Origin: Branchiostoma floridae
Taxonomy: Eukaryota; Chordata; Leptocardii; Amphioxiformes; Branchiostomatidae
Length of the DNA: 64,000 nucleotides
NCBI RefSeq assembly: GCF_000003815.2
Contig: NC_049996.1
Coordinates: 9,450,715-9,514,714 of the forward strand
Direction of reading: 5' to 3'
The first letter of the stretch is position 1. Each line of letters opens with the position of its first letter. Positions 26,657 to 52,165 of this stretch are shown here, in pieces. The notes under the pieces are model-generated. The model worked only from the letters and a program-made list of their open reading frames with translations. It searched no databases and was not told the origin of the DNA. The position numbers and the translations under genes are program-made.

Positions 26657-29618
26657 ATGGGCTGTTCTTGTTCAAAGTCGAGGAAGGTGGACGTAGTACA
26701 TGGACGACGTCCGGTGAGGAGACTTTCGAGCAAAGATGGCAGACAAGCTGCACTGACAGGAGCGCAAGACCAACGACTCACAGGCGACAAAGGTCCTCAG
26801 AACCGACCAGGTCTTTCGGTGCAAAACTTCGCGAGAGCTGACACCATAGCTGTAGAAGAGAAAACCCCGGCACGCCTTACAAAGAAAGACCTCATCCCGG
26901 ACGTCGAAGTGTTCAAAGACTTGGACAAACGTGCAGTTCAGGTAACATGGGTCCTTGACGTCATTTGTTGCATCATTAGTTTTTATTTAAAGGAACATTT
27001 GGTGAGTGTGTGTGTGTTGAGAAATGTACCTAGCCTGTTAACAACATAGCCTCTGCCAGACCTTTCTATTGGGATTATGGATAGTAGAATTAGACGAAAT
27101 AATATAAGGTGAATAGTAGGCTGAGAGAGTGAGTCCACGGTAAGTATGACATTTTGTCCTCTCCATTTCTCCTAACTGAAGATGGAAGATAAGACATGTG
27201 TTTGTCATGGATACCTTGACTGCTATTTTTCCCACTTAACTTTATACAATGTACATGTAAAGAAACATCTATGTCGGCTCTGCACTTAATGTCTAGACTT
27301 TGACTTCATTGATTTGTACTGTAGTCAGATAAAAGTAGCTAGCAAAGCGCATGACTTAATAATCAGAGGTTAAACAATTACAGCAGATAAGATATCCGGG
27401 CCAAATACATGTACACCTAATTTTACCTATAAACTTACAATATGGACACTTAAAGTTTTCCATACCTTCTGTGTGTGCGTATGACGATATGCCATCTAAG
27501 ACAACATACAGTGTCACAAGACCAGACATAGACATGCTTTCTTCAAATAGAAAGAATTATATGTCTTACATTCTGAGCAATTTATGTCACTGTTGTTAGT
27601 TTGCCTAACGAAATGATGCATACTTTAGGGAAATGATTTGAGATTATAGGTCAATAGAATCCTACAATAATTCTTTATCATACGCCAAACAGCAATTACT
27701 CAAGCAATTGGGTATGGTTACGCTTAGACTGTTCGAGTGACTGCTTTTTGGTGTATCTTATTACCTAGATGTCTAACCTTCATCGACATAATAATTCATT
27801 TAAAGGCTCCCGAGGGCCATGCTACCATCAAGGACCTTGTCATGTACCTAATCGAGCCTGCCACAACGCCACTGGAAAAAGCGCGGATCCTGTTCCGTTG
27901 GGTGACGTCACATATCCAATATGCCGTTGACTCTTACGTCACGGGTAGCTCCAAGTCGAAATCCACCGCTCCAGTGGCGGTGTTTCAGCATCGGATGTCC
28001 GTATGCCAGGGGTACTCGGACCTGTATAGGGAAATGTGCAGGTAATGCACCTTTCACAGTGTCTGTTTTTGAAAAAAAATCACCAACAATGTGTTTTGTA
28101 TAAAAAGACTGGAGGAGATGAGGCTTTACTTTTGTTGACCAGAAATCATGTCTAGCAAACTGAATTGTAACAAAGATGTCAGCCATATAATAATAATAAT
28201 AATAATCATCTGGTGTATTTTGCCAGCCAGTAGGTACCCAAAGTATGAGTAATGAGGCTGTTATATGATCTCTATTTCTATCATAGGTAAAAGACGTACT
28301 GATGTACGTTTCCTTCCATCCTTTGTTCCCTAGATTGGCTAAAGTAGAGTGCGTCACCATCAGTGGCCGTTCCAAAGGTGGGTCTTACCGGGTAGGCGAT
28401 AAGTTCGGCCCTGATTCCGACCATGCGTGGAACGCAGTGGAGATAGACGGGAGGTGGTACCTGCTGGACTGCACCTGGGCCGCCGGAAACACTGACCTTC
28501 AGAAGAAAACCTTTGAGTTTAAGTACAAAGAACACTACTTTTTCACTGACCCGGAAGTGTTTATTATGAACCATCATCCAATGGACAACAAATGGCAACT
28601 GTTAGAAGAGCCAGTGTCCCTTGTGGGTTTTGAAAACCAGGTGCACCTGAAGTCCTCATTTTTCAGCCTTGGCCTTTTGCCTAAGTTTCTGAGTCACACC
28701 ATGAGCCCAGTTTGTACCCAAAATGGCGAAGCGACCATTTCTATCAAACTTCCTGAACCAATGTCCTTCATATACCATTTGTTTCCGTATGAAGGTGGAT
28801 ATGCTCAAGATGAAAACGTCCTGCACAAAATCGCTAAAAACATGGCCATTTTCAAAGTGGCACCAGCTCAAAAGGGAAGGTTCGTGTTGCAAATATATGG
28901 CAAACGTGGAACTGCCACCGGGCAATATAGTGAAATCTGCTCGTACTTGATTGACAATGCAGGTCCAAAGGACCTGCCGTTTCCGCCCGTGGGAACCTCT
29001 ACATGGGGTCCAGGTCCATGGCTCCTTGACGGGTTCGTTTCAGATGTCAGTCATCCGAGGGCCATAGTTACACTCCCAGAAGGCGAGGCTAAGATAACCT
29101 TCAATTCTGTAAAACTCCTCCAATATATGTGTGATATTGAGGACGATGGTCAGAAGTGGGATAACTATGCATTTCCCCAAGTAAATGGCCAGACAACCAG
29201 TGTCTTCGTTAGAGCCCCTAAACCTGGTCAGTTCATTCTCACAATCAGGGCAAAAAAGGAAGATGACAAAGAGTACAGGAAATGTATGCATTATCTCCTG
29301 AGATGCACTAAATGTAAATCCCACGTTTCTCCTTACCCCAAGACATTCGGTACTTGGACGAACGGTTGCCGTCTGTACGAACCATTGGATGGTCGCCTTG
29401 CCGCAAATCGACGCGTTAACTTCCGGGTCTGCTGCCCACATGCGGTAGAAGTTGTCGTAATTGCCGCCGGCAATTTTCACAAACTTGCCAGAAATGCAGA
29501 CGGCTCATGGAAAGGCAATGTAGGCACCGGAGTGCAAGATAGTGTTATCCAAGTGGCGACAAAGAAACCAGGTGGCAAAATTTACTCCATATTGCTCCAG
29601 TATGAAGTCGTGGGATAG
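26657..29618 (+). CDS. KY/hillarin-type transglutaminase-like protein A, 601 aa
   Basis: Coding exons 26657-26941, 27806-28041 and 28334-29618 join with GT-AG sites in phases 0 and 2, giving 601 residues. The start MGCSCSKSRK is a myristoylation signal with adjacent palmitoylatable cysteines. A short disordered linker follows, then the KKDLIPDVEVFKDLD motif. The transglutaminase-like core (about 96-225) carries Cys162 (SVCQGY), His204 (DHAWNAVEI) and Asp219 (LLDCTW), plus the conserved FRWV. Three C-terminal KY-type Ig-like repeats (about 250-601) follow, the second opening with WGPGPW. Known KY and hillarin proteins bind cytoskeletal partners such as filamin and support muscle or cell cortex. 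Whether this triad is catalytically active is not shown. A membrane-tethered cytoskeletal role is inferred. Confidence 0.92.
27680..27787. mobile_element. Palindromic repeat family R1, copy 3 (intron of gene A)
   Basis: TACGCCAAACAGCAATTACT on the left and the mirrored TTTTTGGTGTATCTTATTACC on the right, ending CTAACCTTCATCGACA just upstream of the next exon's acceptor. Gene C has the same element at the same intron position, so insertion predates the A/C duplication. Confidence 0.75.
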
Positions 29619-29737
29619 CTTTTGCATTCACTTACATGTATATATAAAATTTATGTATATGTAGTTGCCTCCAGACATTCAAACTACCATCTTACAGATG
29701 TTCGTTGCAATGTTGTGTCATCCTAATAGTTTGTAAA
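29619..29737 (+). other. Proximal 3' UTR of gene A
   Basis: Similar to the sequence after the stop codon of gene B (shared CATTCAAACTACCA and TGTAAACATAAT). No AATAAA occurs before the 179-bp repeat. Confidence 0.6.
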
Positions 29738-29916
29738 CATAATGTTATGGCATTGTTATGAAGAAAGAATGAATGTACATTAAGGACGTTTCGACGAATA
29801 CAAAGACTGATGTGGATGATGATGACCTTAATGATACATGTAAAATTATATCCCCTATGAATGAATGATGCGGAAAAAATGTTATTATGTTTGCGAAATG
29901 CCCATCTTCCTCAAGT
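29738..29916 (+). repeat. 179-bp perfect direct repeat, left copy
   Basis: Identical over 179 bp to 35360-35538. This is 3' UTR sequence of gene A. Homology to the 3' UTR of gene B continues beyond the right copy, not beyond this one. Confidence 0.9.
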
Positions 29917-30075
29917 CAGCCTGACAGGAGCTGGGGAAGAGAGAACGCCGGGTTAGTGCCGAACTGCGCCCCGCCAGTCAGCCTGACAGGAGCTGTGGTG
30001 GAGAGAACGCCGGTTTAGTGCAGACCTGCGACCCGCCCCGAACTGCGCCCCGCCGATCAGCATGACAGGAGCTGG
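29917..30075. repeat. GC-rich tandem repeat, about 2.5 units
   Basis: Units contain CAGCCTGACAGGAGCTG, GAGAGAACGCCGG and CCGAACTGCGCCCCGCC. Non-coding, at the left edge of the 5.4-kb interruption. Confidence 0.75.
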
Positions 30076-30814
30076 TAAACTGGAAGAAGGGCACATCACA
30101 TGTTACGTCACCGCGGCAAAAATTACTGAGAAAACAGAAACATCTCGAGTTCACGAGGGTTAAAAGATCTCTTACTAGCGTACAGGCTGTCCGACAACCT
30201 GAAGTGCAAAAACAAACACTTTCAGAAAGGATATCACAGTCAACTTGGAATCACCGCTGCAAATTGTTGACTACTGCCCGAGTATTGAAGTCTTTGAGCC
30301 TGGTCCAACCACTTTCCGGGCTGTTGACTGCTCCACAAATTGCAAAAATGCTGGCCTAGCACAGAAAACCATGGCAAAATTGTACGGTAAAACAGACAAG
30401 CAACACTGCTAAAACGAGAGCAGCCCAATCAGGCAACTCTACCCGAAACATGGCGCCTCGGCACACACAGAAAAACACTGACCACCACTTTGACGACTGC
30501 CCAAAGTTTCCAAAAAATGGCTTAACTCACCCACAGCGGTGTCAGTAATAAGTTTAACCACTACTGTCGTCAGGGGAGGAATGTCAGGTGCTCCTCCAGG
30601 CCCTCGGTGATCAGTTCAGTGTTGTTCTGCTCCATTAGGCTCCTTGCGCGAGAAAACAAGGATTACGGCAGTCCTGGTGGTGATACAGCCTTGTCTGAAT
30701 ACCTAACTCATGCGAAACAAGAGCTTTTAAAAAAAGCTGGTCTTTCGCTTACTTATATTGTGTAGGTAAAACTTTTACCAGATGAGTTTCAGAACAGTTT
30801 CAATGGTATGAACT

Positions 30815-31170
30815 AGGGGTGGGTACTGGAACAGAAAATTCAGGTACAGGTACAAAGGATCAGGTGCAGGTCCGGACTTGATGGTCTGTGAAAACTTTTG
30901 AAGGGGCGATACTCAAAACAATTGTCCATTTCGCTACTAAGGAATTAGTGGAGTATCTGATTACCACTGGTGTTATAAAGTCCTATGTTCATGTGAACAA
31001 CACTTGTTCTGTACGTTGACGTACAAAGTTTATTCAATTTGTTCTCGTAATTTATTGCACCAGTAAGCCCTTAAACGTATAGATGCCTGCTGATATAATG
31101 TGTTCATTTTCTAATTGGTGCAGCATCCAGTTTACTGATTTTTGTCAGTTCTGTGTCTGTTAATAAAATT
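30815..31170. mobile_element. Degraded copy of the hAT-type MITE
   Basis: Starts TAGGGGTGGGTACTGGAACAGAAAATTCAGG and shares AAAGGATCAGGT-CAGGTCCGGAC and the later TTTCTAATTGGTGCAGCATC with the intact copy at 47837-48269. The right terminus is lost. Confidence 0.55.
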
Positions 31171-32796
31171 GTACTTAATGAGTTTCAAAATGCAAATGCA
31201 GTTTCATTGTGGTATGTTGAAAGGAACGTTTCATTTCTTTTCGGAATGCAAAATTATTGAGATTTTGATTCATTACGTCAGTGGTTATGGGCCACAAACT
31301 CACTCCATCGGGGTAGCTTGGAATCTTCTCATTTGAAATCAATTAGATAAAATATTAGTCAGTGTATTTTACATATATCAAAGAGGGATACACTTTTGTT
31401 GAAGTTTCTTCCACGAAGATCCCTTGAAATTTCGAGTAGTAAGCAATTTTCCACATGCAACCGCCTCCCACCCCACGTCAGATCTCTGCACAATTCTGGA
31501 TTTCATAGAGGTAATTCTCCACATCGTGACTTAGGCTCTGGGTCATTTCAACTTGAGAAGGATCAGAGGACTGATCGAAAGCGTCGGTATATAAGCGCTT
31601 TATTTTGTGCACGGATATATGGTCCTAAAATTGTAACATCGTAATAACACATCAAAATCGCGACACCCCTTCCCAACATGCGACACTCCCTTGGGACAAA
31701 ATGGTGGCGCCCATGGACGCCAACGAAAACAATATACTAGTAGGTTTTGTTATCGCAGGCCTGTAATGAATTGCTATTTGTTCCAACATATGCAACTATA
31801 CAAAAGTAGTTGTCTATACATGCGACGTTCCGGGCGAGCTCTCTCCGGTCACCGACCTTCCAAAATTTCCACATGGCTGGGGAGGACGCGAGACGCCGCC
31901 AGCGAGACCCCGACGGCTGTTTAATAACACCAAGGAGGTTAAAAAAGACCTCGTCAGAGAACTTGATGCTGTGCCTTTAGGAGATTCATAAATAGAATAA
32001 CTGTGACAAATTCAGTCGGTAACGATTTTTGTATGCAAAAAAAAAAATCAAGTTTTATTTGACTCTTTTGACAGTAGACCTCCACAAAACTCAGTAGATA
32101 CATTGTATATAGCTTTCACATCTTTCCTGTATGTACAATGCTCACAGTTCCCTACTCAAGTCAATCTATACACTGTCACCAGTCTTCACCAAACACGATT
32201 AGAATGTGCTAAGATTCAGGATGGATGCTTTTTTTCCGTTCAATGAATGTTGATCAAAGGCAGATATTTCCTCATGATAGCCATCACTTGAGTTGTACAA
32301 TGTAAAAGTGGAAAGGACATCATATTCTGATTGTATTTCTTCACTACCTGCTAGCAGAGAGACTGCACCAGTACACACTATGAACATGTACAGACTCCAG
32401 ATGTTACAGAAGGTATGAATCCTTTATAAGAATAAGGCGTACTAAAATTACATACCGGTAATTATAGGTTTGTTACAATGGCCATTTCTACACCAAAATC
32501 TTACATCATGTCTGTCAACCCAGTTCACATGAGATGGAAACAATTGGAGATTTCTTTGATCCGACCTGGTCCTCCCCTCCCCCATCTAAGTTTGTGCTAC
32601 TCAATATCACTAGTTCATGAAAGGACTTACTATACAATGGACTAGATATCCTTTACCATATGAGATGACCACAAGCTGACCAGTGTAAAAGCTACAGGTG
32701 GTAAGTTTTTTGAAAGCCCATGTTCCCAAGTTTCTGAAGGATGTATAGTATCCTGTGTGGTAACCATGTGCTACCGCCCGACAACCATCTGTTTGA

Positions 32797-33526
32797 NNNN
32801 NNNNNNNNNNNNNNNNNNNNNNNNNNNNNNNNNNNNNNNNNNNNNNNNNNNNNNNNNNNNNNNNNNNNNNNNNNNNNNNNNNNNNNNNNNNNNNNNNNNN
32901 NNNNNNNNNNNNNNNNNNNNNNNNNNNNNNNNNNNNNNNNNNNNNNNNNNNNNNNNNNNNNNNNNNNNNNNNNNNNNNNNNNNNNNNNNNNNNNNNNNNN
33001 NNNNNNNNNNNNNNNNNNNNNNNNNNNNNNNNNNNNNNNNNNNNNNNNNNNNNNNNNNNNNNNNNNNNNNNNNNNNNNNNNNNNNNNNNNNNNNNNNNNN
33101 NNNNNNNNNNNNNNNNNNNNNNNNNNNNNNNNNNNNNNNNNNNNNNNNNNNNNNNNNNNNNNNNNNNNNNNNNNNNNNNNNNNNNNNNNNNNNNNNNNNN
33201 NNNNNNNNNNNNNNNNNNNNNNNNNNNNNNNNNNNNNNNNNNNNNNNNNNNNNNNNNNNNNNNNNNNNNNNNNNNNNNNNNNNNNNNNNNNNNNNNNNNN
33301 NNNNNNNNNNNNNNNNNNNNNNNNNNNNNNNNNNNNNNNNNNNNNNNNNNNNNNNNNNNNNNNNNNNNNNNNNNNNNNNNNNNNNNNNNNNNNNNNNNNN
33401 NNNNNNNNNNNNNNNNNNNNNNNNNNNNNNNNNNNNNNNNNNNNNNNNNNNNNNNNNNNNNNNNNNNNNNNNNNNNNNNNNNNNNNNNNNNNNNNNNNNN
33501 NNNNNNNNNNNNNNNNNNNNNNNNNN
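32797..33526. other. Assembly gap (730 N)
   Basis: Unresolved bases inside the 5.4-kb interruption. Open frames spanning it are artefacts. Confidence 1.
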
Positions 33527-33599
33527 AAGTTTAGGAAGATTTTAGGATCTCTTTCCATTGCAACTACCATCTCTTTTTACCTCCTTGATCATTACCACA

Positions 33600-33965
33600 C
33601 GGCGTACGGTGAAAATGGCACATAATGGGTGAATGTTGGTGAAACACGGTGAAAATGTGTCACCCGGATTCGCATTGTTCCCATGTAAATATGGAAGGGT
33701 GAAAGCAAATATTGCACCTACGTGACAAAAGAGTGAAACATGGTGAAACAAACAGCAATTACGTCATTGTGTGTTTCACGAGCTAGCGACGTGCTCGCCG
33801 CTGTCCAGTCGACGGCATTGGGACTGAAGACTGCCCGCCCAGTTCCTCAGCGCAAGCCGAGGATTTTTTTCGCATTGCCGCTAGCTCCGCAAGCCGTGGA
33901 AATATCTTTGACACTGGGATTGAAGACTGCCCGCCCAGGATTTTTTACGCTTGCAGCTAGCTAAG
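33600..33965. repeat. Short local duplications
   Basis: GGTGAAA-type repeats occur at 33606-33750. The phrase TGAAGACTGCCCGCCCAG is repeated at about 33825 and 33920. No gene is supported. Confidence 0.5.
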
Positions 33966-34677
33966 ACGTGCACGTGATCGCAATACGCACCTCTGATTGG
34001 TTGATCCTACAGCTGTAGGGGGTTCCCCGCTATCTACTTTCTTTGCTGCCCCATGATGCTTTGCGCCCACCCGTGTCAAAGAAAATTTCTTTTACATTTC
34101 TACGCACACAAAAAACGCTATATTCCACAATTACTTTGCAATATTGCCGTGTGGTAGTGACAGATTGTGAGATGAAGATTTCCTTCAACTGCTGGCATTG
34201 TAACGTTGTTATGCTCTGAACTTGCCAAGGACGATAACGTCCTTGGAACTTGCCCAGTGTTTCTCGACCGCCTATTATAAATCATAAGGTCCAACCTACC
34301 CCTACCTACTGGGAGGAAAGACACCACAACGTTTGGACCCTTTCGTACGCGCCGCGTTCACTAAGAGAAACGAAGTGTGACTGATATCCATCGAATACAC
34401 GTACGCAAAGATACCTTAAATGTTTTCTCTTTACCTTGCAGATATAGTACAAGTTGAATCGCGGAGGTCTTTGGTTGAATAGACGTCTACAAATACGTTG
34501 TGCAGGGCACATTACAGGTCCTTTATTCCTGCTAATAAGCCATGCATAAACCAAGCAGCACATTCATGGCAGGCCGATACGTATGTCATACATACTAGTA
34601 CTTGCATGGCCTTTGGCAATACCATCGAATCTGCAGGGTAGAATATCTCGCTAGCACGGTATGGCATGGTCGACCCG

Positions 34678-34705
34678 GACGGACGGACGGACGGACGGAC
34701 GGACA
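34678..34705. repeat. (GGAC)n microsatellite
   Basis: Six to seven GGAC units in a row. Confidence 0.9.
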
Positions 34706-35359: not shown

Positions 35360-35538
35360 CATAATGTTATGGCATTGTTATGAAGAAAGAATGAATGTAC
35401 ATTAAGGACGTTTCGACGAATACAAAGACTGATGTGGATGATGATGACCTTAATGATACATGTAAAATTATATCCCCTATGAATGAATGATGCGGAAAAA
35501 ATGTTATTATGTTTGCGAAATGCCCATCTTCCTCAAGT
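35360..35538 (+). repeat. 179-bp perfect direct repeat, right copy
   Basis: Identical to 29738-29916. Here the downstream sequence continues with GTTGCACATTGAAACACC, matching the 3' flank of genes B and C, so this copy is contiguous with the original distal 3' UTR. Confidence 0.9.
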
Positions 35539-35840
35539 TAAGTTGCACATTGAAACACCTCATTATGTGATCTGGAAGGTGTCTACTGTTTTATCTGCTT
35601 TCCTGTTCGCCATTTGCCTGTAGTGTTCTATTGATAAATGTGTGTTAGTTTGTTTTTCTTGTAAACAACCGCCAATAAGAAAATAAGTGGAGCTGTTATA
35701 TCTTCTGAAGCTGAAATTATCTAATAAACAGTTTACACTGTTCTAGCAGCATCTTCGCATATACAATCTGTACGTAGAAAATTCTCACAGCCATGTATCT
35801 TTCAATAAACATAACAAACATTTTCCGAAGTGTCTAGAAA
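35539..35840 (+). other. Distal 3' UTR remnant of gene A with polyadenylation signals
   Basis: Homologous to the distal 3' flanks of B and C (shared TTCTAGCAGCA, ATACAATCTGT, TCTCACAGC and CTTTCAAT). AATAAA occurs at 35723-35728 and 35804-35809. Confidence 0.6.
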
Positions 35841-36728: not shown

Positions 36729-39528
36729 ATGGGCTCGTCTTGTTCCAAATCGCGGAGTGTGGACATAGTTGTCGAAGGACAGCGCTCGGGGAGAAAACTT
36801 TCGGTCAAAGGTGGCAGACAAATGACACTGCCACAAGGCCACCAACTCGCAGTTGGCCATGGTCCTTTGCAAAATGCTTTTGAGCAAAACCACTCAAATG
36901 ATGAGCCTTTGCAAGACATAGGCACAGAGATACAGCAAACTGATGAGGGTGAGGCTAAGCAAGCACAGGTGGAAGCTTCGAGCAATGAAGAGTCAAAGGA
37001 GATTCAACAGATACAACTGACGTCATGGCCGTGGAGAAAAGGGAAGAACAGACCAACCCAAATGGTGAATCTTCTGAGGACACTGTCGCAGAGGTACAGG
37101 AAACTACTGATGAACAAAATGACCTGAAAGCAGAAGTCCATGAGGCTTCAACAGATCGTCCGGTACAAACCAACGAAGGAGATGACCCCACAGCCGATGA
37201 GAAGGAACCCCCAGAACCCCGTACAAAGAAAGACCTCATACCGGACCTTGAAATATTCAAAGACTTGGACGAACGTGCAGTCCAGGTAACAATGATCCTT
37301 GTCATAAATCCTTGTCATTGTTTTGCAACAATTTGTGTTTAAAGCAACATAATGATTGTGTTAATAAAAGTCCTAGTTTACTCCCATTAGGAGGACATTT
37401 TAGCCTACGACTTGTTAGACATGCGTATTTCTCGCTACTTATCGGATTGTAGATCAATTAAGTCAAAGTCTAGATATTTTTAGTGTAAAGCCAACACAGC
37501 TGTTTGTCAGTACATGCATAAAGGTTAAGTGGGAAAAAATAGCAGTTGAGGTATCCAGGATATATACATGTACATACTATCTTACAAGCTTACAAGAAGG
37601 TTAAAACTGGATTTCTTTCTGATGTGTGTTTGTACATATATAGTAGTCACTATAAAGCTATGATGATGATAATGATCCCGGCATTGAGGAAGCTTTCGAA
37701 GAATGTGAAAATTAAGACAGTACATTAGGGGCACTTTGTCGTTCTTGTTGGTGGTTTGATTGGGGAAATGATTTGAAGTAATGGAAAAATGTAATTGATT
37801 ATTTCTCCTCAGACTCCCGAAGGCCATGGTACCATCAAGGACCTCGTTCTCTACCTAATCGAGACTGCCACAACTCCGCTGGAAAAAGCGCGGATCCTGT
37901 TCCGCTGGGTCGCTACACACATCCAGTATGACGTAGTGTCCTACGTCACCGGTGGTCCCAAAGAAGTCACACCAGAAGGCGTGTTCAGGAAGAGGATGTC
38001 GGTATGTCAGGGCTACGCGGATCTGTACAAGGACATGTGCAGGTAGATTCCATATTTACCTGTTAATTTCTAAGCCGTTAGCCGTTTTGTGAAGAACAAT
38101 GCCTACACTTACAAAACCTTTAATGCAATAACTTCGGTTCCTAACGAATGTTCTGTTTACAACCCTGAAATTACCTACAAAAATTAAACTCTTCTACTAA
38201 GGGTTTCTTCTAATCATGGCATTGATATTTATCCCCCTAGCCTGGCTGAAGTAGAGTGCGTCACCATCAGTGGCCGTTCCAAAGGTGCAGGTTACAGGGT
38301 GGGTGATAAGTTCGGCCCTGGTTCCGACCATGCGTGGAACGCAGTGGAGATAGACGGGAGGTGGTACCTGCTGGACTGTACCTGGGCCGCCGGAAACACT
38401 GACCTTCAGAAGGGGACCTTTACGTTTGAGTACAATGAGCACTACTTTTTTACTGACCCGGAAGTGTTCGTTACCGACCACCATCCAATGGACAATCAAT
38501 GGCAACTGTTAGAAGAGCCAGTGTCCCTTGAGGTTTTTGAAAACCAAGCGCGTTTTGAGACCTCATTTTTCAAACTTGGCCTTTTGCCTAAGTTTTTGAG
38601 CCACACCATGAGCCTTGTTTGCACACAAAATGGCGAAGCGACCATTTCTATCTACATTCCTGAGCCAATGTCGTTCATGTACCACCTTTACCCAGCTGAA
38701 GGCGGACATGCTCAGGATGAAAACGTCTTGCACGAAATTGTTGACAACATGGCCCTGTTCAAAGTGGCACCAGCTCAAAAGGGGCAGTTTTTGTTAGAAA
38801 TATATGGTAAACTTGGTACTGCCAATGGGCAATATAATCAAATCTGCTCGTACCTGGTTGACTGTAATGGTTCAACCACAGATCATGTCCCTTTCCCACG
38901 CTTACAAACGTTCACGTGGGGTCCAGGTCCATGGCTCATTGATGGATTCATTTCTGATGTCAGTCATCCGAGGGCCATAGTTACACTCCCTGAAGGCGAG
39001 GCTAAGATAGAACTCAACTCTGTAAAACCTCTCCAATATTTGTGTAACATTAAGGAAGGTGATCGTAAATGTGATAACTATGCATTCTCCCAAGTAAATG
39101 GTCAGACAGCTAGTATCTTCGTCAGAGCCCCGAGAACGGGCCAGTTCATTCTCACGATCTGGGCAAAAGAGGAAAATGACCAAACGTACAGAAAATCTGT
39201 GTACTATCTCCTGAGATGCACTAAATGTAAAACAACTATCTCTCCTTACCCGCAAACATTCGGCAATTGGACAACCGGTTGCCGTCTGTATGAACCATTG
39301 GATGGTCGCCTTCTCGCAAATCGCCGCGTACACTTTCGGGTCGTACACCCAAATGCGGTAGAAGTTGTCGTAATTGCCACCGAGTGGCACAAACTTGCTA
39401 GAAACGCAGACGGCTCATGGGAAGGCGACGCAGACACTGGAGAACAAGGTAAAATTCTCCAGGTGTCGACAAAGAAGCCGGGTGACACACAGTACTGGAC
39501 AGTGCTTCAGTATGAAGTCGTGGCATAG
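36729..39528 (+). CDS. KY/hillarin-type transglutaminase-like protein B, N-terminal frameshift
   Basis: Exons 36729-37285, 37813-38042 and 38241-39528 have the same junctions as A and C. The start is MGSSCSKSRS, lipidation-type with Cys5. The first coding exon is longer than its paralogs' and carries an acidic Glu/Thr/Gln-rich insertion. Its frame from the start ATG reaches a stop at 37125-37127. The KKDLIPDLEIFKDLDERAVQ segment lies in another frame, open from 36989. The switch lies within about 36989-37024 and is equivalent to one missing base. From exon 2 on, the protein is intact, with catalytic Cys, His and Asp and three Ig-like repeats. An internal ATG at 37025 could give a non-lipidated form. 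A sequencing error, allele-specific break or incipient pseudogene are all possible. Confidence 0.85.
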
Positions 39529-40629: not shown

Positions 40630-43382
40630 ATGGGCTGTTCTTGTTCAAAATCGAGGAAGGTGGGCGTCGTTGGAGAGCGACGCCCGATAAGAGTCATCTC
40701 GAATGAAGATTCAACAGGTCTTATGGTGCAAAACAACGACAGAGCTGATGCCATAAAAGTGGAGAAGAGAACCCTGGCACCCCGTAAAAAGAAAGACCTC
40801 ATCCCTGACGTCAAAGTGTTCAAAGACTTGGACGAACGCGCAGTTCAGGTAACATGGATCCTTGTCATTTGTTGCAGCAGTACTTTTTGTTTAAAGCAAC
40901 ATATGGTGGGAGTGTGTACAATATAAAGTACCTAGCCTGTTTACAATATAGCATCTGCAAGGCCTTTCTATGGGGGTTATGGATAGTGAAATTTGTCGAA
41001 AGAAAGCGAATAGTAGGCTGAGAGAGTGAGTCCACCGTAAGAATTACATTTTTCCCTCCCAATTTCTCCTAACTGAAGACGGAAGATTAGACGTACATAT
41101 ACTTGTCATGGATGCATTGCCTGCAATTTTCCCACTTAACGCTTATGCATGTACAGAAAAAAATAGCGGTGTGGGCTTGCACTAAATGTTGAGACTTTTA
41201 CTTCATTGCTTTGTACTGTAGCCAGATACGTAGCGGCAATGCGCATAACTAAAAATCACGGCGTTTATAAAGATATATAGGGCAAATATAGTACATATAC
41301 ATGCAATCTTAACTATAAGCTTATAATATGCATGATAAGTTTTCTGCCATCTAATACACGATACGGTGTCACACGATCAGACATTGGTCTTTGGACATAG
41401 ACATGCTTACATTCTTACATGTCTTACATTCTAAGCATTTCATGTGACTGTTGTGAGTTTGCCCTGCGAAATGGTCGTACTTTAGGGAAATGATTTGAGG
41501 TTATAGATATATGATATCCCAGCAATAATTCCTTATCTTACGCCAAACAGCAGTTACCCAAGCAACTAGATATGATTTTGGAGAGTAACTGTTCGAGTGA
41601 CTGCTTTTTGGTGTATTTTATTACTTGGATGTCTAACCTTCATCGACGCAATAATTCTTTATCTTTAAAGGGTCCCGAGGGCCATGCTACCATCAAGGAG
41701 CTAGTCCTCTACCTAATCAAGACTGCCAAAACGCCTCTGGAAAAGGCACGGATCCTGTTCCGCTGGGTGACGTCACACATCCAGTATGACGTAGTGTCCT
41801 ACGTCACCGGTGGTCCCGAAGAAGTCGGGCCGGAAGGCGTGTTCAGGAAGAGGATGTCGGTGTGTCAGGGCTACGCGGATCTGTACAAGAACATGTGCAG
41901 GTAGATTCCATATTTAACTATTATTATTTAAGCTATTGGGCAATCAAGTCTCCTCTGTGACAGGTCAATGCCAAGTTACAGATCTTAACAAAACCTTGAT
42001 AACTTTTTTACCTATGATTTGTTTACATACCTGAAAAAAATTGTGATCATTGTTTTGATATTTGCCCTCATAGATTGGCTGAAGTGAATTGCGTCACCAT
42101 CAGTGGCCGTTCTAAAGGTGGGTCTTACAGAGTGGGCGATAAGTTCGGTCCTGGTTCTGACCATGCGTGGAACGCAGTGGAGATAGACGGGAGGTGGTAC
42201 CTGCTGGACTGCACCTGGGCCGCCGGAAACACTGACCTTCAGAAGAGGACCTTTGAGTTCAAGTATAATGAGCACTACTTTTTTACTGATCCAGAAGTGT
42301 TCATCACGGACCACCATCCAATGGACAATCAATGGCAACTGTTAAAAGAGCCAGTGTCCCTTGACATTTTTGAAAACCAAGTGCGTTTTGAGACCTCATT
42401 TTTCAAACTCGGCCTTTTGCCTAAGTTTCTGAGTCACACCATGAGCCCAGTTTGTACACAAAATGGAGAAGCGACCATTTCTATCAAAATCCCTGAACCA
42501 ATGGCCTTTATGTGCCATTTTTATCCATCTGATGGCGGATATGCTCAGAATGAAAACGTACTGCACGAAATCGTTGATAACGTGGCCATGTTCAAAGTGG
42601 CACCAGCTCAAAAGGGACGTTTCATGTTGCAAATATTTGGCAAACTTGGTACTGCCACTGGGCAACAAAACCAAATCTGCTCGTACATAATTGACAGTGC
42701 AGGTCCAATGACTGGCTACTTGCCGTTTCCGCGATTGAAAACCTCTACATGGGGTCCTGGTCCATGGCTCCTTGACCGGTTCATTTCTGATATCAGTCAT
42801 CCTAAAGCCATTATCACACTCGATGAAGGAGATACAAAGCTAACCTTCACGGCCACACGCCTCCTTCACTACAAGTGCGACATAAAAGAAGATATAATAG
42901 ATGAAAACATGTACCGCATTTGGGATAGTCATGCATTTTTCGAAGTAGACTGTCAGACAGTTAGCGTCTACGCCAGAGCACCTAAAATGGGCCAGTTCAT
43001 TCTCACAATCTGGGCAAAAGAAGAAACAGACCAGAAGTATAGCAAGTGCATTAACTACCTACTTAAAAGTGATAAATGTAAAGCCCATGTTTCTCCTTAC
43101 CCCAAGACATTCAACAATTGGACAAACGGTTGCCGTCTGTACGAGCCATTGGATGGTCGTCTTGCCGCAAACCGGCGCGTTCATTTCCGGGTCGTCTACC
43201 CAAATGCGGTAGAAGTTGTCGTAATTGCCACCGGCAAGTGGCACAAACTTGCCAGAAATGCAGACGGCTCATGGGAAGGCGATGCCGACACTGGAGAACA
43301 AGGTAATATTCTCAAGGTGTCAGCAAAGATGCCAGGTGACACACAGTACTGGACAGTGCTTCAGTATGAAGTCATGGCATAG
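40630..43382 (+). CDS. KY/hillarin-type transglutaminase-like protein C, 585 aa
   Basis: Exons 40630-40848, 41671-41900 and 42074-43382 join in phases 0 and 2, giving 585 residues. The start MGCSCSKSRKVGVV matches gene A and predicts myristoyl plus palmitoyl anchoring. The N-terminal linker is the shortest of the plus-strand paralogs. Catalytic-type residues are Cys138 (SVCQGY), His180 (DHAWNAVEI) and Asp195 (LLDCTW). Three KY-type Ig-like repeats follow; the second has WGPGPWLLDRF and a small insertion (DIIDENMYRIW) absent from A and B. Promoter, first exon and intron sequence are closest to gene A, while the transglutaminase exon is closest to B. It is tail-to-tail with gene D (1.26 kb between stops). 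Membrane-associated cytoskeletal function is inferred from the family. Confidence 0.92.
41532..41647. mobile_element. Palindromic repeat family R1, copy 4 (intron of gene C)
   Basis: Orthologous in position and sequence to the R1 copy in gene A's intron (CTTACGCCAAACAGCAGTTAC and CTGCTTTTTGGTGTATTTTATTAC). Confidence 0.75.
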
Positions 43383-43870: not shown

Positions 43871-44340
43871 ATATACAAAGAGAATATTTTCTGTAACATC
43901 TGATAATGGATTTCAATGTTGTGTCAAGTACAAATATCACATGACATCTCTTAGCAGCTTTTGCTTTTTACGTTTTGTCGTACGTGTTCTATCTTTGGTA
44001 TGCAATGTGGTAATATTCAGTGTTTACATTTTGTGGTATACATTATGTACATATTATGTTACAGCTTGCTATGAATATCAACACAGATGATTCAAATCCA
44101 GATAACATTACAAATAGCTAAATCAATACATGTAGGTCTTAGTGTTTATATCACATCCTTGGTGTACAATATGACTGGAATATTTCTGCGTAACGTTCCA
44201 CTTGTTTTCTAAGCGTTTTTTTCTGTATTTCATGCTGAAGATACATATTATAGGCTCTCTTTCTGTGACAAAGGTGGTCAAAGGCACACGTGCGTCATGT
44301 CAATCCATACATTAAAAGAAACAGCAATGTAATATACAAC

Positions 44341-44542
44341 ATAAGATATGCCAAAAAGCAGTTACTCAAGCAACTGGATATGATTTTGAAAACGGTCAGA
44401 CGTTTCAGATAGCATCCACTATCCTTCGTCAGTGACACTGGCGATAATGTCTGAAAGGTCTGACCGTTTCCAAATCTATCCAGTTGCTTGTGTAACTGCT
44501 TTTGTCATATCGTATTACCTGGGTGTCTAATCTTCATCGACA
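44341..44542. mobile_element. Palindromic repeat family R1, copy 5 (longest)
   Basis: ATAAGATATGCCAAAAAGCAGTTACTC on the left, mirrored by GGTCTGACCGTTTCCAAATCTATCC and the TGACAAAAGCAG-type end on the right. The interior contains CTTCGTCAGTGACACTGGCGA. It ends with the asymmetric TATTACCTGGGTGTCTAATCTTCATCGACAC tail. It lies between the convergent genes C and D. Confidence 0.8.
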
Positions 44543-44646
44543 CAGCATAAGATACATTTCCTAATTACCAGAAGGTACCAGCCGTTCATTTTGTTTACAA
44601 TTTTGATTGCAACCAATTAACCGGTTTCCTGTCCATAGTCGACAGC

Positions 44647-47600
44647 TTAAACAACATGATAAATGAGAAGAACTCGTTCCAAATTTCCCTCCATTTTCAA
44701 CCAAAGCGTTAAATCTCCAGGCGCTCCGGTGTTGACGCCACTTTCCCATGATCCCTTGTCATCCTTGGTGAGGTTCGTCCGGTCACCAGATGCTAGCATA
44801 ACCCACAATCCCTCCGCTGAGGGACAGGTGACCCGGAAGTGAATGTTTTGCTTTGATGGAAGGCTGCCATCTCTTGGCTCGTGTAGTTCACAACCTGCAC
44901 AGAAGAAATCACAGATATGTCATTATGACAACTTTAAACCTAACAGTAACCGTGGAATATCTCTAACAAATAGTGCTTCCGGATACTGGCTATTTGAAAA
45001 ACAAAAACAAAACAAAGAAAGTGTAAAATGTAGCATCCATAGATAAATGTGGTCCCAGGGCAAAGCCTGTACTAGTAAAGTGCATGCCTTATGATTAATG
45101 ATAGACTTATAAACTGTACATTGGAGGGATTAGTGGTGTGAACTTTTTATGACATACCCCGGGGCCACTCATTTACGAGTGGGAAGAGCGGACGGTCATC
45201 CGTAGCCTCATCACACCTCAGTAGGTAGTAGATCTTGTCGTTGGCGTCCTCTTCCCAGATGGACAGTGCGTAATATCCCTCCGCCGGCAGACGCGCGCAA
45301 ATCGTGATCTTGTTCCCCACAGTCTCCATGAAGTGATGCTGTGGAGGAAGGCATTCTTCGTCGACGTTTTGGATGACGCAGGAGTTAAATGCATTCTCTG
45401 CCTCTATTGTGATGCACGCTTCCCCTGACTTTGCGACAACTACAGCAGGTATATGGCTGGCGTTGGACAACTTCCCATTGGCTAAATGAAGTCCAGGACC
45501 CCATAGGTAGCCATGGGTCTTTGGGAAGGTTCTAAAGTTTTCTTTCGGCTCATTGCATTGGATGAGGTAGCTGCAGACTTCCACTGACTCCCAATCAGCT
45601 GTCGTCGTCCATAGCTTCATGACGAAGGTGCCAACATCCGGTGGGAAGATTTGAATGTGCGCTTTCCCGGCAATGATCTGGTGGAGCACGTGACCGGTGA
45701 TTTCATTGTCTCTGTCGTCCACCGTAAAGAGTTGAGTCGAAAAGTTCGTGGCTTTAGAGAACTCCACGGATAGTTTAACTTCTCCTTGCTCTGTTTTCAG
45801 CACAGCTTCTTTGTGACTGACATATTTTAGGATGCCGTCTTGGATGGCTTTGCCCGGTCCGTACGGTTGCCCGTATTCGTCGACGTTTGGTTCATCACAG
45901 TAGATCACGTAATCGCAAAGAAGTTGCCAGTCCATATTTTCCGACACTGTGAAGATGTTCAGTGCGTAGTACCCGTGTTCGGGAGGGATAACTTTGAAAC
46001 ATGCCTGATCGTAGACCATCTCAAACAGAATTGCACCTTTTATTTCGTTGTCCGCATCGCCTGCTTTGAACAGTTGTGCTGCAAAGTCTGTGTCTTCTGA
46101 CGTTTTCATTGATATAGTGACTTCGCCGTCTGCAGTTTTTGCAAGCGCTCTTGGTTGGTTGGTTTGTAGTATCGTTCTTTCCTCCAGTGCCAGCCCAGGT
46201 CCCCATACACAACCGTCTTTGTCAGGAAACGGTTCCACGTCATCTTTGGCTGTCTCACAATTGATGACGTAGTCACAAATGGGGTCCCAGTCACAACCGT
46301 CCGTTACAGTGAACAACGACAGTTTGTATTTACCACTATCAGGTGGGACGACTCTGAAGTGTGTCTTTCTGTCCACTATTTCTGTCAGGACAGCCCCCTT
46401 GATGTCATTTTCTGCGTCATCAATGCTGAAGAGTTGACCCGATGCATTATTGCATTCCGGTAGCTCTGTGGTGATGGTACATTCCCCATCTTTTGTGTCG
46501 ACTACAGCTTCAGTATGGCTGACACTTTTGAGTCTTTTTTCTCTCAGCGCGACGCCTGGTCCCCAGACAGCACCATCGTTATCAGGGAAGACGTCATCGT
46601 CCTCTAACGATTCTTTACAGTCGATGATGTATTCTACGAAAGGTTGGAAATCTTGTTGCCCGGAGTCAGACGGACTGACGTATATCTTCAGCGCGTAGAA
46701 ACCTGTTTCGGGAGGCGCGAGTCGGAAGCGTGCCGCCCCGTTCACAACTTCGTGTAGCATACACCCTTTTACGATATCCTCTTCCCCATCTTTGCAGAGC
46801 TCGCAGGAGAAGTCCAGGACATCCTTGGGTTCAAGTTCAACTGTCACCTCCCCGTCTTCCGTTTGCAACACCGCCACTGGGTGGCTGACCTTCACCAGGT
46901 GTCCTCGCTGAAGTTCACCGCCAGGACCCCATAGGTGACCGTCATTGTCGGGAAACCCTACAAAGTCTTCCTTCACTTCACTACAGTTAACCAGGTAGGC
47001 ACAAACCATTTCCCAGTCCCCCTCTTCTGTTTTGCACGTCACACAGAACCTGAAAGATCCCGTTTGGGCCGGTACTACACGAAAATATCCCGTGTTTTTA
47101 ATTATTTCGTACAGAACGCTCCTCTTGATCGGTGTTGTGTCATCTTCTTCCGTCATTTCCCAAGAAAGATCGATGTATTTTGGAAGATCAACTCTAAAGA
47201 TAATTCCACCGTTTTGTGTTTCCTTGACGCCATCTTGGAAGCTCAGGTTGGTAGGCTGTAGGCCACATGCGTAGAATGCGGGGGTGAGGTGGACCTCGCT
47301 TTCGAATTGGTCCAGGGTTTTGGGTTCTTCCAACAGCTGCCACTTGTCGTCCAAGGGGAGGTGGTCCAGTACCATCATCTCTGGATCTGAAAGAAGGAAT
47401 GAATGAATTAACAAATTGAATGAAAGAATGAATGAATGAATGATTGGTGTATTACGTCATTGAGCGACATACAGCGACAAAAAGGGGCAGCCTACTTTGG
47501 CTGCATTGCAGTGTGCTTTACAATAGCGATAAACAATTATACATAATCTAAACATTACAAATCTCACAATATTTACTTTTAAAATACCTGAATGTATACA

Positions 47601-50600
47601 CACAGAAGCCTATTGTCAACGCTAGCCCCTTGAGTTGTTTCTTGTTGGGTATGTCGATAATGTAAGGTAGTGTGCTCTCCCTATACCTAGCAACTCTACA
47701 TTGGAATTGCGTTATCAACAACAAACGCGTAAAATGTATGTGGTGTGTTAACTACGACTGAAATTGTTTATATACTCAGTGATATTGTCACTTATTCCAG
47801 GTTGTACTAGCTTGTAGTATCTTCAATACTAATTATTAGGGCTGGGTACCGGTACAGAAAATTCAGGTCCAGGTCCGGTTCAGGTCCAAAGGATCAGGTC
47901 CAGGTCCGGACCTGAACCTGGACCTGATGCAGTATGACTCATACCAATGGTCCATTTCACAACAAAGAAATCGGTTGGGTGGAGTATTAGACTTACACTG
48001 GCGTTTTAAAATCCTACAACGCTATTTGCACCTGTGCGATTGGCTATAAAATTTAGTAGAAGTTACTATAAACTCTACTCTACTTCACTCTTGTTATTTT
48101 CTTCCACCTACAAGCGCCAAAACGTGTGAATACCGGATAAAATAATCTGTTAATTTTCTAATCGGTCCAGCATCAGGTCCACCTAATTTTTTCAGGTCCG
48201 GTTTTTCTGGACCGGTCCAATAAGAAAAACCGGTTTTGTACCGGTACGCTGTACCGATACCCAGCCCTACTAATTATACCAGAAATACTTTGTATATGTA
48301 GGAACTTCACACTTTATAAATACACCCAAACAATACTTCACTCCCTGTGGGGTTACGAAAAAGCCACTGTTTCGGGTACTGTTACTGTTTACACTTGGGT
48401 ATTGCATTTTCGTGACCTACGCTCCAAGAATGATGTACGTTAACTTGGTCGACTCACAACAGTATCAGACATATCAATATCAATACAAAACTAAATAAGC
48501 AACATTTGCAACCAAATACATAATGGTACATGTTTACCTTCACGTAGTCTAGCCTAACTACACCTCCAGTAACCATGGTGACAGTCGTCTATTCCAGGTC
48601 ATTGGCCTCATTTGTTTTGTAGAAGAAGAGGGGAAAAGAAAAGGAACAAAAACAAAATGTTTCCCTTCCATTCAAGGTAAACATAAAACATGTAACCCCT
48701 CCATAGATTCATACCTGCGAGGAAGCGGTCTTCATTGTAGTTGAAGATGAAAGTGTTCCTCTGTGTGTCCACCACACCTGCCCCCCAGGTGCAGTCTAAC
48801 AGGTACCACCGCCCGTCTATCTCCACAGCGTTCCAGGTGTGGTTGTACTCTTCCTTAAACTTCCTGCCCACCTTGTAGCCGACACCCTTAGACTTCCCAC
48901 AGATCTCCTCACACCGGAGACCTGCAAGGCTGAGGGGGACAAATAAAATATAGTTTTATTTTTAATATCTTATGGCTCTATATTGTGTGTGGTTGTGTTT
49001 GGTCCAGAACCCAGAGGTCATGGGTTCAAATCCTATTATGCTACCGATCATGTGCCCTTTTGGAAAGGCATTTTACAGGACTTTCCTCACTTCACCCAGA
49101 TGTAAAAGTGGATACCTGACTTTGGTTGGGGAGGTAAGATACAGTGGAAGGAGAGGGGTGGGCTCCGCTTTCTAATATCATGCCCCAGACACAGGGGATA
49201 ACAACGTTAAACCACTGCCCGTACGTACTTAAAAGGCCATAGGACTACTTTAACCTTGATCTCTTTAATCATGGCTCCATAAATGCGTATATATATACCT
49301 AGACGTTTTGATCAACGTTACAGATGTAAGTATATTTGAACTAACGTCAGGTGTATTTTTTTTTATTCTGCTGCAGATATACGGAAAACATTATCCTCAT
49401 CCTTCATATCCTGGCCAAATACCGATATCTATTGATATCTCTATATATATATATATCACTAGTCCATCATTCCTCAGCCGTTAGCAAGAATCTACGGTGA
49501 CCCTTTTGGCCATATAACAGCAGTATTATGTACGACACTACAACCTCCACGACTGTTCTGAGAAGTATTTGCTAACGCAAACCTGTCCCATATGTGAGGA
49601 CCCTGACCGATGACTGACCCGTAAGCTTATGTAATGGTCACGCCAGTATTGGAAGACACAAGACAGAACAAATATGCGCGGTTGTGTTGTAGAACGCCAT
49701 ATAATACCACAAGTGAACCGACACGTGGTTTTCAATGCTAAGCACACAGTCTGTGAATGGCTTTATTTGCACTGACTGCACGCCGATACCGACCTGTTTT
49801 ACTGCATGGGTTACACTATTGACAGGTAAAGCGTAAAGCATTTGGAAGAATGGCTGCATTTTCGCCAAGTCATTCGTGGCCGTAAGACGAAGGGGGCACG
49901 TTCCCTTTTAGTCTAAAAATACCCTGGGAACATTGGACGAGTCACGGAAAATTACTGAAGAGTATTCGTGGTCATTGTTGAAATACCGGTGTCAAACTTG
50001 GACAAGGTCGTCATGAAATCTTTTGACATTTTCACAGAATGTGTTTTAGAAAATCATATGTACATCCGCGCCCTTTTGTCCTTGATTGAGGTCTCTTTGT
50101 GCGGATGACTTTGAAGCACGCCAGCTATATCTAGCTTAAAAACATGACATGGTTTATACCCCCCCCCCACCCCCCCCTAAGCTGGTTGATTAATCAGATC
50201 AGTATAAATTGACCTATTCAGATTTACTTCCCCAATCGATGCTGTTTGCTGCGGTATGCTACATCTAAGTGAGAAATGCCCCAAACCCGTAAAGATTTAA
50301 GACGCACATACAGGCATTATATATGTGCATCTTGTATATATACGGGCACAGTAGGAAAAGGCTTCGATGCGATCCGAACGCCCTCCTCCTTTTCCACAGA
50401 ACTCTGCAGTATTTCTATCTACAAGATCATCTCTAAGAAACAAAGAGTATCTACTTTCTTTCATATCTTTCTTCAGCGTCACTGACGAAAAATAGTGGAT
50501 ATTATACTAAACGTCTGACCGTTTCCAAAAAAATCATATCCAGTGCTTGAGTGCTGCCTTTTGGCGTATCTTATTACCTGGATGCCTGACCTGCATCGAC

Positions 50601-52165
50601 GTAAAGATATCTCTTACCTGCACATGTTCTTGTAGAGTGCGGAGTACCCTGAGCAGACGGCACTGCGTCTGGTGAACACTGCCTCAGCCGTCATGTCGGG
50701 AAAGCTAGGGAAACAGATAACGTTTAAACTAGGATTCATTCACTTGTCTGTATCGGAACGTATTCATCCACTTTTTTTTATCACGTCGTAATTTGATGCA
50801 CATTAGACAAAGATCTAACACTGACGAAATGTAGTGGATTCTGTCTGAAACGTCAAACCGTTTCCAAAATCTTATCCACTTGCTTGAGTAATTACTATTT
50901 GGCGTATCTTATTACCTGGATGTCTAACCTTCATCGAAAGATCGAGCACTGCCTCCATATTTTAAGAGGTGATAGTCCCTTGTCCTGAATGCTATTATAG
51001 AAACCTGGCATTCAAACCCTATTATAGCTGTTTAGTCTCATCGTTATTTGAGAGGACATAGAGACTACTACTATGCAACTGAAATACGGTTGGGTACCAT
51101 GATACTGTCGTGTAACAGTTGTAATTATCAACGTTAAGCGTCTAGACATATGACAACCTGTAATTCCAAAGACTTAACAACCCACCTTCCGGACATGAAG
51201 GCCGGGACGTCATACTCTATTCTGGCGGTGACCCATCGCCAGATGGACCGAGCCTTCTCCAGGTCCGTCCCGGCGCGACGCAACAAGTAGTCCACCGTCT
51301 TTTCTATGGACTCCTCTTCACTTTCAGGCGTCTGTAGTAGATATCGTAGAAGTATATTCAGGAAAATATCACATTTGTTTTAGTTTGAAGAAAATCATGA
51401 TAAACTTGCAAATGTAAAGTACAATGCCGACAATTTTTATAATTATTAAGTATTTTTTAAACACTTTATATTCTTTCATACAAAAATTCAAATTAAGTGT
51501 TCTGTTTTCTAATTAGATTACGATATCATTTATCTACATGTATATACTAGTATATTATCCTATGGCTTAAGTATACTAAAAGAAGACGTATACCAACATT
51601 ATTGCAAGAAAAATGAGTGACTGCAATTTACCTGCAGGGCATATTCGTCAAGGTCTTTAAAGACTCCGATGTCTGAAATTAATTGTTTCTTGGGGATTCC
51701 AAGAAGCGGAGTATCCCCGTCTTGCAACACTGTCTCTTTTTCCGAAGAGTCGCCAAAAAGCACGACGATACTTGCAGGGTCGGCCCGAGGACCCGAAGGT
51801 GGATCTTCGTATTTTCTCGGGCGCCGGTTCCGCTTCCGAATCTTCTTGACCACTCGTTTGGATTTTCTCTTCATTTCTACAATGGCGTGCCAACTCAGGA
51901 CTTTGTTTCTTGACTTGGTGATCAGATATTTCTGGCGCATCCTTCTTGTCTTTTCTTCTCCGGCCTTGCTACTTTTGGACGTCGACGTCTTCTCGAATTT
52001 GTCCGAATCGCCGGTACCATTCGTGATGACAGTCTCGTCGATTATTTTCCCGACCACGCGCCCATTGTCTACCGTCATGACAAGAGGTTGGAACGATGCC
52101 TTGCTCATGCGGCCATCTTGTTGTCCCGTCGGCGGTCTGACATCCCTCGAGCCACCGCAGCCCAT
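44647..52165 (-). CDS. KY/hillarin-type transglutaminase-like protein D, 1152 aa, seven Ig-like repeats
   Basis: Six coding exons: 52165-51632, 51331-51186, 50704-50618, 48929-48715, 47386-45158 and 44894-44647. GT-AG junctions and phases agree throughout; 3459 nt. The start MGCGGSRD is a myristoylation-type N-terminus. A disordered 178-residue first exon follows, with a strongly basic patch (KRKSKRVVKKIRKRNRRPRK) and the ISDIGVFKDLDEYALQ motif. The transglutaminase-like core has Cys244 (AVCSGY), His286 (NHTWNAVEI) and Asp301 (LLDCTW). Seven KY-type Ig-like repeats follow; five have an FPDNDG-WGPG-like opening (one reads YGPG). The last matches the final repeat of A, B and C and sits on its own exon. 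The triad exons contain three introns that A, B and C lack. Role: a longer, multi-repeat relative, possibly a scaffold or spacer. Confidence 0.9.
47402..47445. repeat. (GAAT)n microsatellite
   Basis: GAATGAAT-type units in the gene D intron, immediately upstream of an exon acceptor on the minus strand. Confidence 0.8.
47837..48269. mobile_element. hAT-type MITE, 433 bp, intact ends
   Basis: Terminal inverted repeats TAGGGCTGGGTACCGGTAC on the left and its near-perfect complement on the right are flanked by an 8-bp duplication, CTAATTAT, at 47829-47836 and 48270-48277. An 8-bp target duplication with TAGGG termini is characteristic of hAT elements. The interior is AT-rich with CAGGTCCGG subrepeats and no transposase. 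It lies in an intron of gene D. A degraded copy lies at 30815. Confidence 0.85.
48985..49255 (+). mobile_element. tRNA-derived SINE-like element
   Basis: A B-box-like GGGTTCAAATCC at 49022-49033 is preceded by a weak A-box region. A body follows with CCCTTTTGGAAAGGCATTTTAC, CACTTCACCCAGATGTAAAA and GGGTACC-like segments, a common layout for invertebrate tRNA-SINEs. It lies in the intron of gene D between the 48.7-kb and 50.6-kb exons. No clear target duplication was identified. Confidence 0.5.
50472..50600. mobile_element. Palindromic repeat family R1, copy 6 (right half)
   Basis: CAGCGTCACTGACG, CGTCTGACCGTTTCC, AAATCATATCCAGTGCTTGAG and GGCGTATCTTATTACCTGG, ending ATCGAC at 50600. Only 15 bases separate it from the gene D splice donor at 50617. 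Confidence 0.75.
50820..50936. mobile_element. Palindromic repeat family R1, copy 7 (right half)
   Basis: ACTGACGAAATGTAGTGGATTC, CGTTTCCAAAATCTTATCC and TTGGCGTATCTTATTACCTGG. Same orientation as the neighbouring copy. In a gene D intron. Confidence 0.75.

Follow-up and report, generated by a model that had tools for sequence, protein, structure and literature searches.

A window of 64,000 nucleotides of the Branchiostoma floridae genome (C18:9450715-9514714, in an assembly of 513.4 Mb and 431 contigs) contains, at positions 26657-52165, four spliced genes of the KY type, which we call A, B, C and D. All four pair a Met-Gly start resembling an N-terminal lipidation signal with a transglutaminase-like core and a chain of KY-type immunoglobulin-like (Ig-like) repeats, and the same kind of start recurs at KY-type loci elsewhere in the genome, including loci where the catalytic triad has been lost. 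The initial annotation had recognized four such paralogs, three on the plus strand and one on the minus strand, with an MG-[CS] start and a Cys-His-Asp core, and the spliced models, the Pfam searches and the triad, present in all four, bear it out.

Architecture of the KY-type cluster

The gene models, obtained by joining tblastn exons at splice sites with matching intron phases, encode proteins of 601 (A), 670 (B), 585 (C) and 1152 (D) amino acids with no internal stops. Gene A, on the plus strand like B and C, consists of three exons: the first (26657..26941), with a 3' splice site 57 nt before the ATG, codes for the start MGCSCSKSRK, a basic linker and an end of the form KKDLIPD..FKDLD; the second (27806..28041) for the first half of the core with the catalytic Cys (VCQGY); and the third (28334..29618) for the His (DHAWNAV), the Asp (LLDCTW), two KY Ig-like repeats and the C-terminal domain up to the stop. 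Gene C likewise has three exons, with the start MGCSCSKSRK in the first (40630..40848), the catalytic Cys in the second (41671..41900) and the His, the Asp, two KY Ig-like repeats and the C-terminal domain in the third (42074..43382). In gene B, the catalytic Cys exon (37813..38042) and the last exon (38241..39528; His, Asp, two KY Ig-like repeats, C-terminal domain) follow an N-terminal part (36729..37285) that opens with MGSSCSKSRS and contains an internal frame change. A proposed intron of 62 nt (36949-37010, GTGAGG...CAACAG) brings the gene back in frame, with an acceptor that has a poor pyrimidine tract; the alternative is a frameshift, real or from the assembly, and every statement on the whole B protein depends on this choice. 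Gene D, on the minus strand and convergent with C, has six exons. The first (51632..52165) encodes the start MGCGGSRDVR and, from residue 99, a strongly basic stretch with a net charge of +14 over 20 residues, and is followed by exons for the N-terminal part of the core (51186..51331), the catalytic Cys (VCSGY; 50618..50704), the His and Asp (NHTWNAV and LLDCTW; 48715..48929), six KY Ig-like repeats (45158..47386) and the C-terminal domain with the stop (44647..44894).

In Pfam searches, the core matches PF01841 (Transglut_core) in all four proteins with E values of 6e-13 to 2e-10 and 49.4, 45, 49.1 and 41.4 bits for A, B, C and D, respectively, against a gathering score of 23, the value for B being that of the 62-nt intron model. 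PF23265 (Ig-like_KY) matches two stretches each in A, B and C and six in D (E values of 9e-40, 1e-40, 5e-36 and 8e-99). The triad motifs read VC[QS]GY, [DN]H[AT]WNAV and LLDCTW across the four genes. Neither Transglut_N nor Transglut_C gave a Pfam match in A and D (E up to 0.1) or in B and C (E up to 0.01), and the absence of these domains beside the core rules out an assignment of the cluster to the classic transglutaminases. The LIM-transglutaminase proteins of the ltd-1 type form another known group, and no LIM domain was matched by Pfam in A-D. The four proteins contain no long hydrophobic stretch. Sequence searches of the PDB returned only distant matches (FAP246, 9crn), with no KY chain among them.

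Genes A, B and C are tandem copies, with cores that are 80-89% identical and a synonymous divergence in the core of 0.29-0.57. Gene D is older than these copies: its core shares 52-55% identity with theirs, and its exon 1 just 22-35%. The ratio of nonsynonymous to synonymous divergence (dN/dS) among A-C is 0.29-0.36 overall and lowest in the transglutaminase core (0.18-0.24), which indicates that the core is under constraint in these three genes.

Met-Gly starts in the cluster and across the genome

The starts of A and C (MGCSCSKSRK), B (MGSSCSKSRS) and D (MGCGGSRDVR) all fit MG[CS]xxS. The consensus for N-myristoylation comprises Gly2, Ser6 and a basic residue after it, and we take the window starts, with Met-Gly and Ser at position 6, to agree with it; the excerpts of PMC4550359 give no such rule. 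In the genomic DNA of each of the four genes, an in-frame stop precedes this ATG with no other in-frame ATG in between; position -3 is a purine and position +4 a G. All six frames of the window together have 2645 Met codons; 24 of them open an MGxxx[ST] motif and seven an MG[CS]xx[ST] motif, and four of these seven are the starts of A-D. In A-C, 9 of the 11 columns formed by residues 1-11 are identical, as compared to 8 of the 39 ungapped columns of the linker behind them (Fisher P 0.0004, for only three sequences that are related to each other). At the nucleotide level A and C are identical at 34 of 36 positions at the start, and at 78% of intron 1. A, B and C share a conserved 3' splice site, TGACAG, whose distance to the ATG is 57, 45 and 23 nt, respectively; a 5' untranslated exon is therefore likely in these genes, and since the phases between splice site and ATG differ, a coding extension common to the three is unlikely. 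Strongly basic stretches are found in A and D.

In the whole genome, the PF23265 profile finds at least 54 matches, which we grouped by hand into loci that also show core exons; the counts may be lower bounds. This yields at least 14 KY-type loci with core and KY Ig-like repeats: the four of the window, one more on C18 (C18b, at 12.31 Mb), two on C4, six on C7 and one on C2. Three of the PF23265 matches belong to a further block on C7 (12606863-12608675, minus strand), a 604-residue frame with KY Ig-like repeats and the C-terminal domain, which may be a truncated KY copy and was left out of the locus count. A Transglut_core match at C18:2887861 was also dropped as a KY locus, having no PF23265 match; its frame resembles the core of a peptide:N-glycanase. 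On C7, the same core-exon translation is found in inverted orientation at 12614424-12614651 (minus) and 12621301-12621528 (plus), near a gap of 100 N (12614700-12614799); these copies represent an inverted duplication or an assembly artefact, and the exon assignment of locus C7b1 is less sure for it.

Ahead of the first core exon of each locus, hand-chosen regions of 2-10 kb were searched, under one rule for both strands, for MGxxxS at the first in-frame ATG with a purine at -3 and a donor-like site behind. On the sense strand 13 of the 14 loci have one match each, as against 1 of 14 on the antisense strand; if position 3 is restricted to A, C, G or S, the counts become 12 and 0 of 14. The fourteenth locus, C7a4, has the start MGGGAS, MGGGASVQWNNTQ followed by CAG|GTAACA, and failed solely on the donor rule. 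Outside the window the starts are MGSSCS (C18b), MGSGSS (C4a), MGCGGS (C4b) and MGLVCS (C2), and, on C7, MGSGSS (C7a1), MGCGTS (C7a2), MGCGSS (C7a3 and C7b3) and MGCGAS (C7b1), in addition to C7a4. A Cys occupies position 3 or 5 at 11 of the 14 loci.

Loss of the triad and prokaryotic relatives

Only five of the 14 loci keep the triad, namely A-D and C18b (ICQGY, NHAWNAV, LIDCTW). At the nine loci on C2, C4 and C7 there is no VCxGY motif and the His is replaced by G, K, T or S, while the Asp is kept; C4b does contain a Cys, but it lies a few residues off and out of alignment with the catalytic position. For C4b and C7a4 the Cys region, and for C7b3 the His part, were read separately. A tree built on the latter half of the core together with the first Ig-like domain, and rooted with 10 of the 11 wanted prokaryotic rows (L009 was dropped), places the five intact loci in one clade (97/95) and the nine degenerate loci in another (99/97), with a long branch for C2 and only partial rows for C4b and C7b3. 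On the simplest reading of these sequences, the triad was lost once. Because both clades, intact and degenerate, have the Met-Gly start, the simplest reading is also that it predates their split; the lipid-type signal thus looks ancestral within the KY genes of this genome and appears to have been kept where catalysis was lost. The initial annotation had regarded a membrane tether as what might set the cluster apart as a distinct, membrane-anchored KY subfamily. The lipid-type signal extends well beyond the cluster (13 of 14 loci plus the MGGGAS start), but its role as a mark of such a subfamily does not survive: a cluster-specific subfamily is ruled out by the same start at loci on C2, C4, C7 and distal C18, nine of them paralogs with a degenerate triad.

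A scan of prokaryotic genomes reveals relatives of the core with up to 46% identity (Methanothrix). We analysed the best 80 of 131 prokaryotic loci matching the core together with one viral contig, 81 relatives in all. Cys-His-Asp is present in 84 of 85 aligned rows (the relatives plus A-D) and hence in 80 of the 81 relatives, the remaining one showing Cys-His-Glu, perhaps through misalignment; a separate 85-row tree left out one row for its short length. Profiles of the animal KY Ig-like repeats and C-terminal domain match 16 of the 81 relatives and no shuffled sequence, and PF23265 itself scores above its cut-off in two of the three relatives scanned (L002 and L004, not L017). By a Kyte-Doolittle window, a crude measure that replaced a first crude test (51 of 81), a hydrophobic N-terminal segment is found in 72 of the 78 relatives with a complete N-terminus, three with open-ended N-termini having been set aside. 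None of the 81 has an MGxxx[STC] start. Thus, archaeal and bacterial KY-like proteins (from Methanothrix, Melioribacteraceae and others) resemble A-D in the core, and some of them in the KY Ig-like and C-terminal domains, but differ by their mostly hydrophobic N-termini and the lack of MGxxx[STC]. Given these matches and the absent start, the architecture of core, KY Ig-like repeats and C-terminal domain is probably older than animals and the lipid-type start would belong to the animal side; the prokaryotic relatives probably lie on the opposite side of the membrane from the animal KY proteins. An AlphaFold model of the archaeal relative L002 (mean predicted local distance difference test, pLDDT, of 89.3; predicted template modelling score, pTM, of 0.82) has a mixed helix-strand core with strand-rich parts behind it. 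Five relatives from Methanothrix-type archaea (L002, L003, L006, L012 and L046) combine core, KY Ig-like repeats and C-terminal domain with hydrophobic N-termini. Four others of Methanothrix type (L008, L009, L016 and L079), of 655-667 amino acids, have about 100 extra residues before the KY-like core.

Elsewhere in the window, two stretches of 179 nt (29738-29916 and 35360-35538) are 100% identical and flank a gap of 730 N (32797-33526); they are either a very recent duplication or an assembly artefact. On the minus strand, four open reading frames with CUB-domain matches (57143-62575) surround a long Thr/Pro mucin-like repeat at about 58.0-58.9 kb and probably form one gene. A dispersed repeat of about 50-200 nt occurs in both orientations around 10.1, 15.4, 44.4, 50.5, 50.9 and 55.0 kb, and also within an intron of gene D. 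The window yielded no match in Rfam or tRNA scans.

A candidate membrane tether and its alternatives

Building on the gene anatomy, the start motif, the state of the triad, the distribution of the starts and the two clades, all of them shown by the sequences, we infer with moderate confidence that at least 14 KY-type proteins of this animal are tethered by lipid to the inner face of a membrane, with their Ig-like chain on the cortical cytoskeleton and their core acting as an enzyme, a pocket or a binding domain. In this model, the proteins would be made in the cytosol, Met1 removed and myristate attached to Gly2 co-translationally; palmitate would probably be added at the 11 of 14 loci with a Cys at position 3 or 5, and basic residues behind the start may help some proteins to hold on to the membrane. 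The lipid together with these residues would keep the protein on the cytosolic face, where the KY Ig-like chain and the C-terminal domain could bind the cortical cytoskeleton, in the manner of hillarin with septins and of KY at the Z-disc. As for the core, the five intact genes would use it as a thiol enzyme or a ligand pocket, and at the nine loci that have lost Cys and His it would serve for binding without catalysis.

The excerpts of the papers cited here describe several systems that such a tether would resemble. Myristoylation is often a first step towards palmitoylation and a stable hold on the membrane (PMC7373427). In the Src-family kinase Lyn, the G2A mutant ends up in the cytosol and C3A remains at the Golgi (PMC7531007), and the combination of Gly2 myristate, palmitate on a nearby Cys and basic residues is like that of A-D for the tether only, in an otherwise unrelated protein. 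TG1 is a transglutaminase-fold protein held at the membrane by an N-terminal lipid (PMC5046136), as we propose for A-D, although it belongs to a different family, the classic transglutaminases. Acylated proteins of this fold are thus already known in another family. Other acylated transglutaminases are annulin, band 4.2 and Drosophila TG-A; to our knowledge, no classic transglutaminase contains KY Ig-like repeats.

Within the KY-like proteins themselves, hillarin is an invertebrate member. In leech and Drosophila it compares with A-D, by description only, through its cortical site at the axon hillock and its action through septins, and the excerpt of that report makes no mention of an N-terminal acylation (PMC3081291). 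Vertebrate KY, after which PF23265 is named, was also compared by description only: it is transglutaminase-like with conserved putative catalytic residues, as are A-D, but it is a Z-disc protein, unlike the membrane site proposed here, and its mutations are associated with myopathy, with no proven enzyme activity or mechanism (PMC6078408). In the open-licence literature, we found no link between kyphoscoliosis peptidase and myristoylation and no joint report of hillarin and transglutaminase. We know of no Met-Gly at the N-terminus of vertebrate KY. Yeast Cyk3, a division-site protein whose transglutaminase-like domain matters though it lacks the conserved Cys (PMC7773586), might be likened to the nine degenerate loci, but the window genes keep this Cys; Cyk3 also has an N-terminal SH3 domain (PMC7773586), for which Pfam gives no match in A-D. 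KY-like transcripts are reported from haemocytes of abalone and oyster (PMC11250055, PMC12064177), which shows only that KY-annotated genes are expressed outside muscle.

Several observations count against a membrane tether as a family trait. The animal side of the comparison is this one genome, and the MGxxxS filter was written after the candidates had been seen, so that its 13 of 14 is not a blind result. A looser scan for Met-Gly starts in six fetched regions gave 13 matches, of which seven are the KY starts of seven loci and six lie elsewhere, one of these within the C-terminal domain of a KY gene. Outside the window, the start exon is tied to its gene by position and strand for most loci. 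C18b is linked beyond this, its start being in the same reading frame as the exon 1 end; C4a is linked weakly, by an exon-1-like end in the same open reading frame (tblastn E 0.69); C7b1, which adjoins the inverted duplication, has one of the least sure links; and C2, with Leu at position 3 and its long branch, is the weakest locus. C4a, C7a1 and C7a4 have a Cys at neither position 3 nor position 5, gene B changes frame between its start (36729) and the end of exon 1, and a 5' exon spliced in frame could shift the start in A or B, although not equally in C. Paralogs elsewhere without the motif, an outcome that the initial annotation had foreseen as fatal to its proposal, were looked for, and 13 of the 14 loci have an MGxxxS start by the filter, the remaining one, C7a4, having MGGGAS; for the Ig-only block on C7, neither a core nor an MGxxxS start was found before it.

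The starts might also have other explanations. True starts could lie upstream, in 5' exons joined at the conserved 3' splice site, in which case Gly2 would be internal and never acylated. The splice site does precede the ATG in A, B and C, at a distance in A and B that is a multiple of three and would permit an in-frame extension, but the 23 nt of C are out of phase with both, and an internal site does not explain why 13 of 14 loci have MGxxxS at a first in-frame ATG that is preceded by a purine at -3; we consider this very improbable. Hardly credible is the idea that recent duplication or gene conversion, not selection on a lipid signal, conserved the starts. It draws on the near identity of A and C (34 of 36 nt at the start, 78% in intron 1), but the loci fall into two deep clades on four contigs, those on C2, C4 and C7 largely refuting it, exon 1 of D shares only 22-35% identity with its counterparts in A-C, and Gly2 and Ser6 stay where neighbouring residues vary.

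Accepting that the Met-Gly start is N-myristoylated, the lipid could serve protein-protein contact, folding of the N-terminus or unconventional secretion, not stable anchoring. Drosophila TG-A, whose myristoylation is needed for secretion, offers a precedent. Cytosolic and nuclear myristoylated proteins mostly lack palmitoylation according to the excerpt of PMC7373427, and three of the 14 loci have no Cys at position 3 or 5; however, the other 11 do have a Cys beside the Gly and A and D carry strongly basic stretches, the pattern of double-signal membrane proteins, and a lipid of this non-anchoring kind appears unlikely to us. A different view would make catalysis the main function of the cluster, its intact genes being membrane-bound cross-linking enzymes or proteases. 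The triad, kept at 5 of 14 loci and in 80 of 81 relatives, and the low dN/dS of the core among A-C (0.18-0.24) speak for it; no activity is proven for KY (PMC6078408), and nine paralogs without the Cys motif and the His have kept the start. We regard it as doubtful, while noting that it is compatible with a lipid tether for the five intact genes.

Returning to the tether, a broader scenario is tentative and somewhat less likely than not: acylation would be ancestral in animal KY proteins, which would have originated as membrane scaffolds from a stock with exported prokaryotic kin, would have lost the catalytic core in one whole clade but retained the tether there, and would have shed the tether in the vertebrate KY of the Z-disc. 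The prokaryotic relatives suggest, in any case, that the combination of core, KY Ig-like repeats and C-terminal domain predates animals. A lipid-type start shared across the family in an invertebrate provides a simple handle on these proteins, as a single change of Gly2 would probe whether they act at a membrane, and the paralogs that have the start but not the triad separate the function of a scaffold from that of an enzyme.

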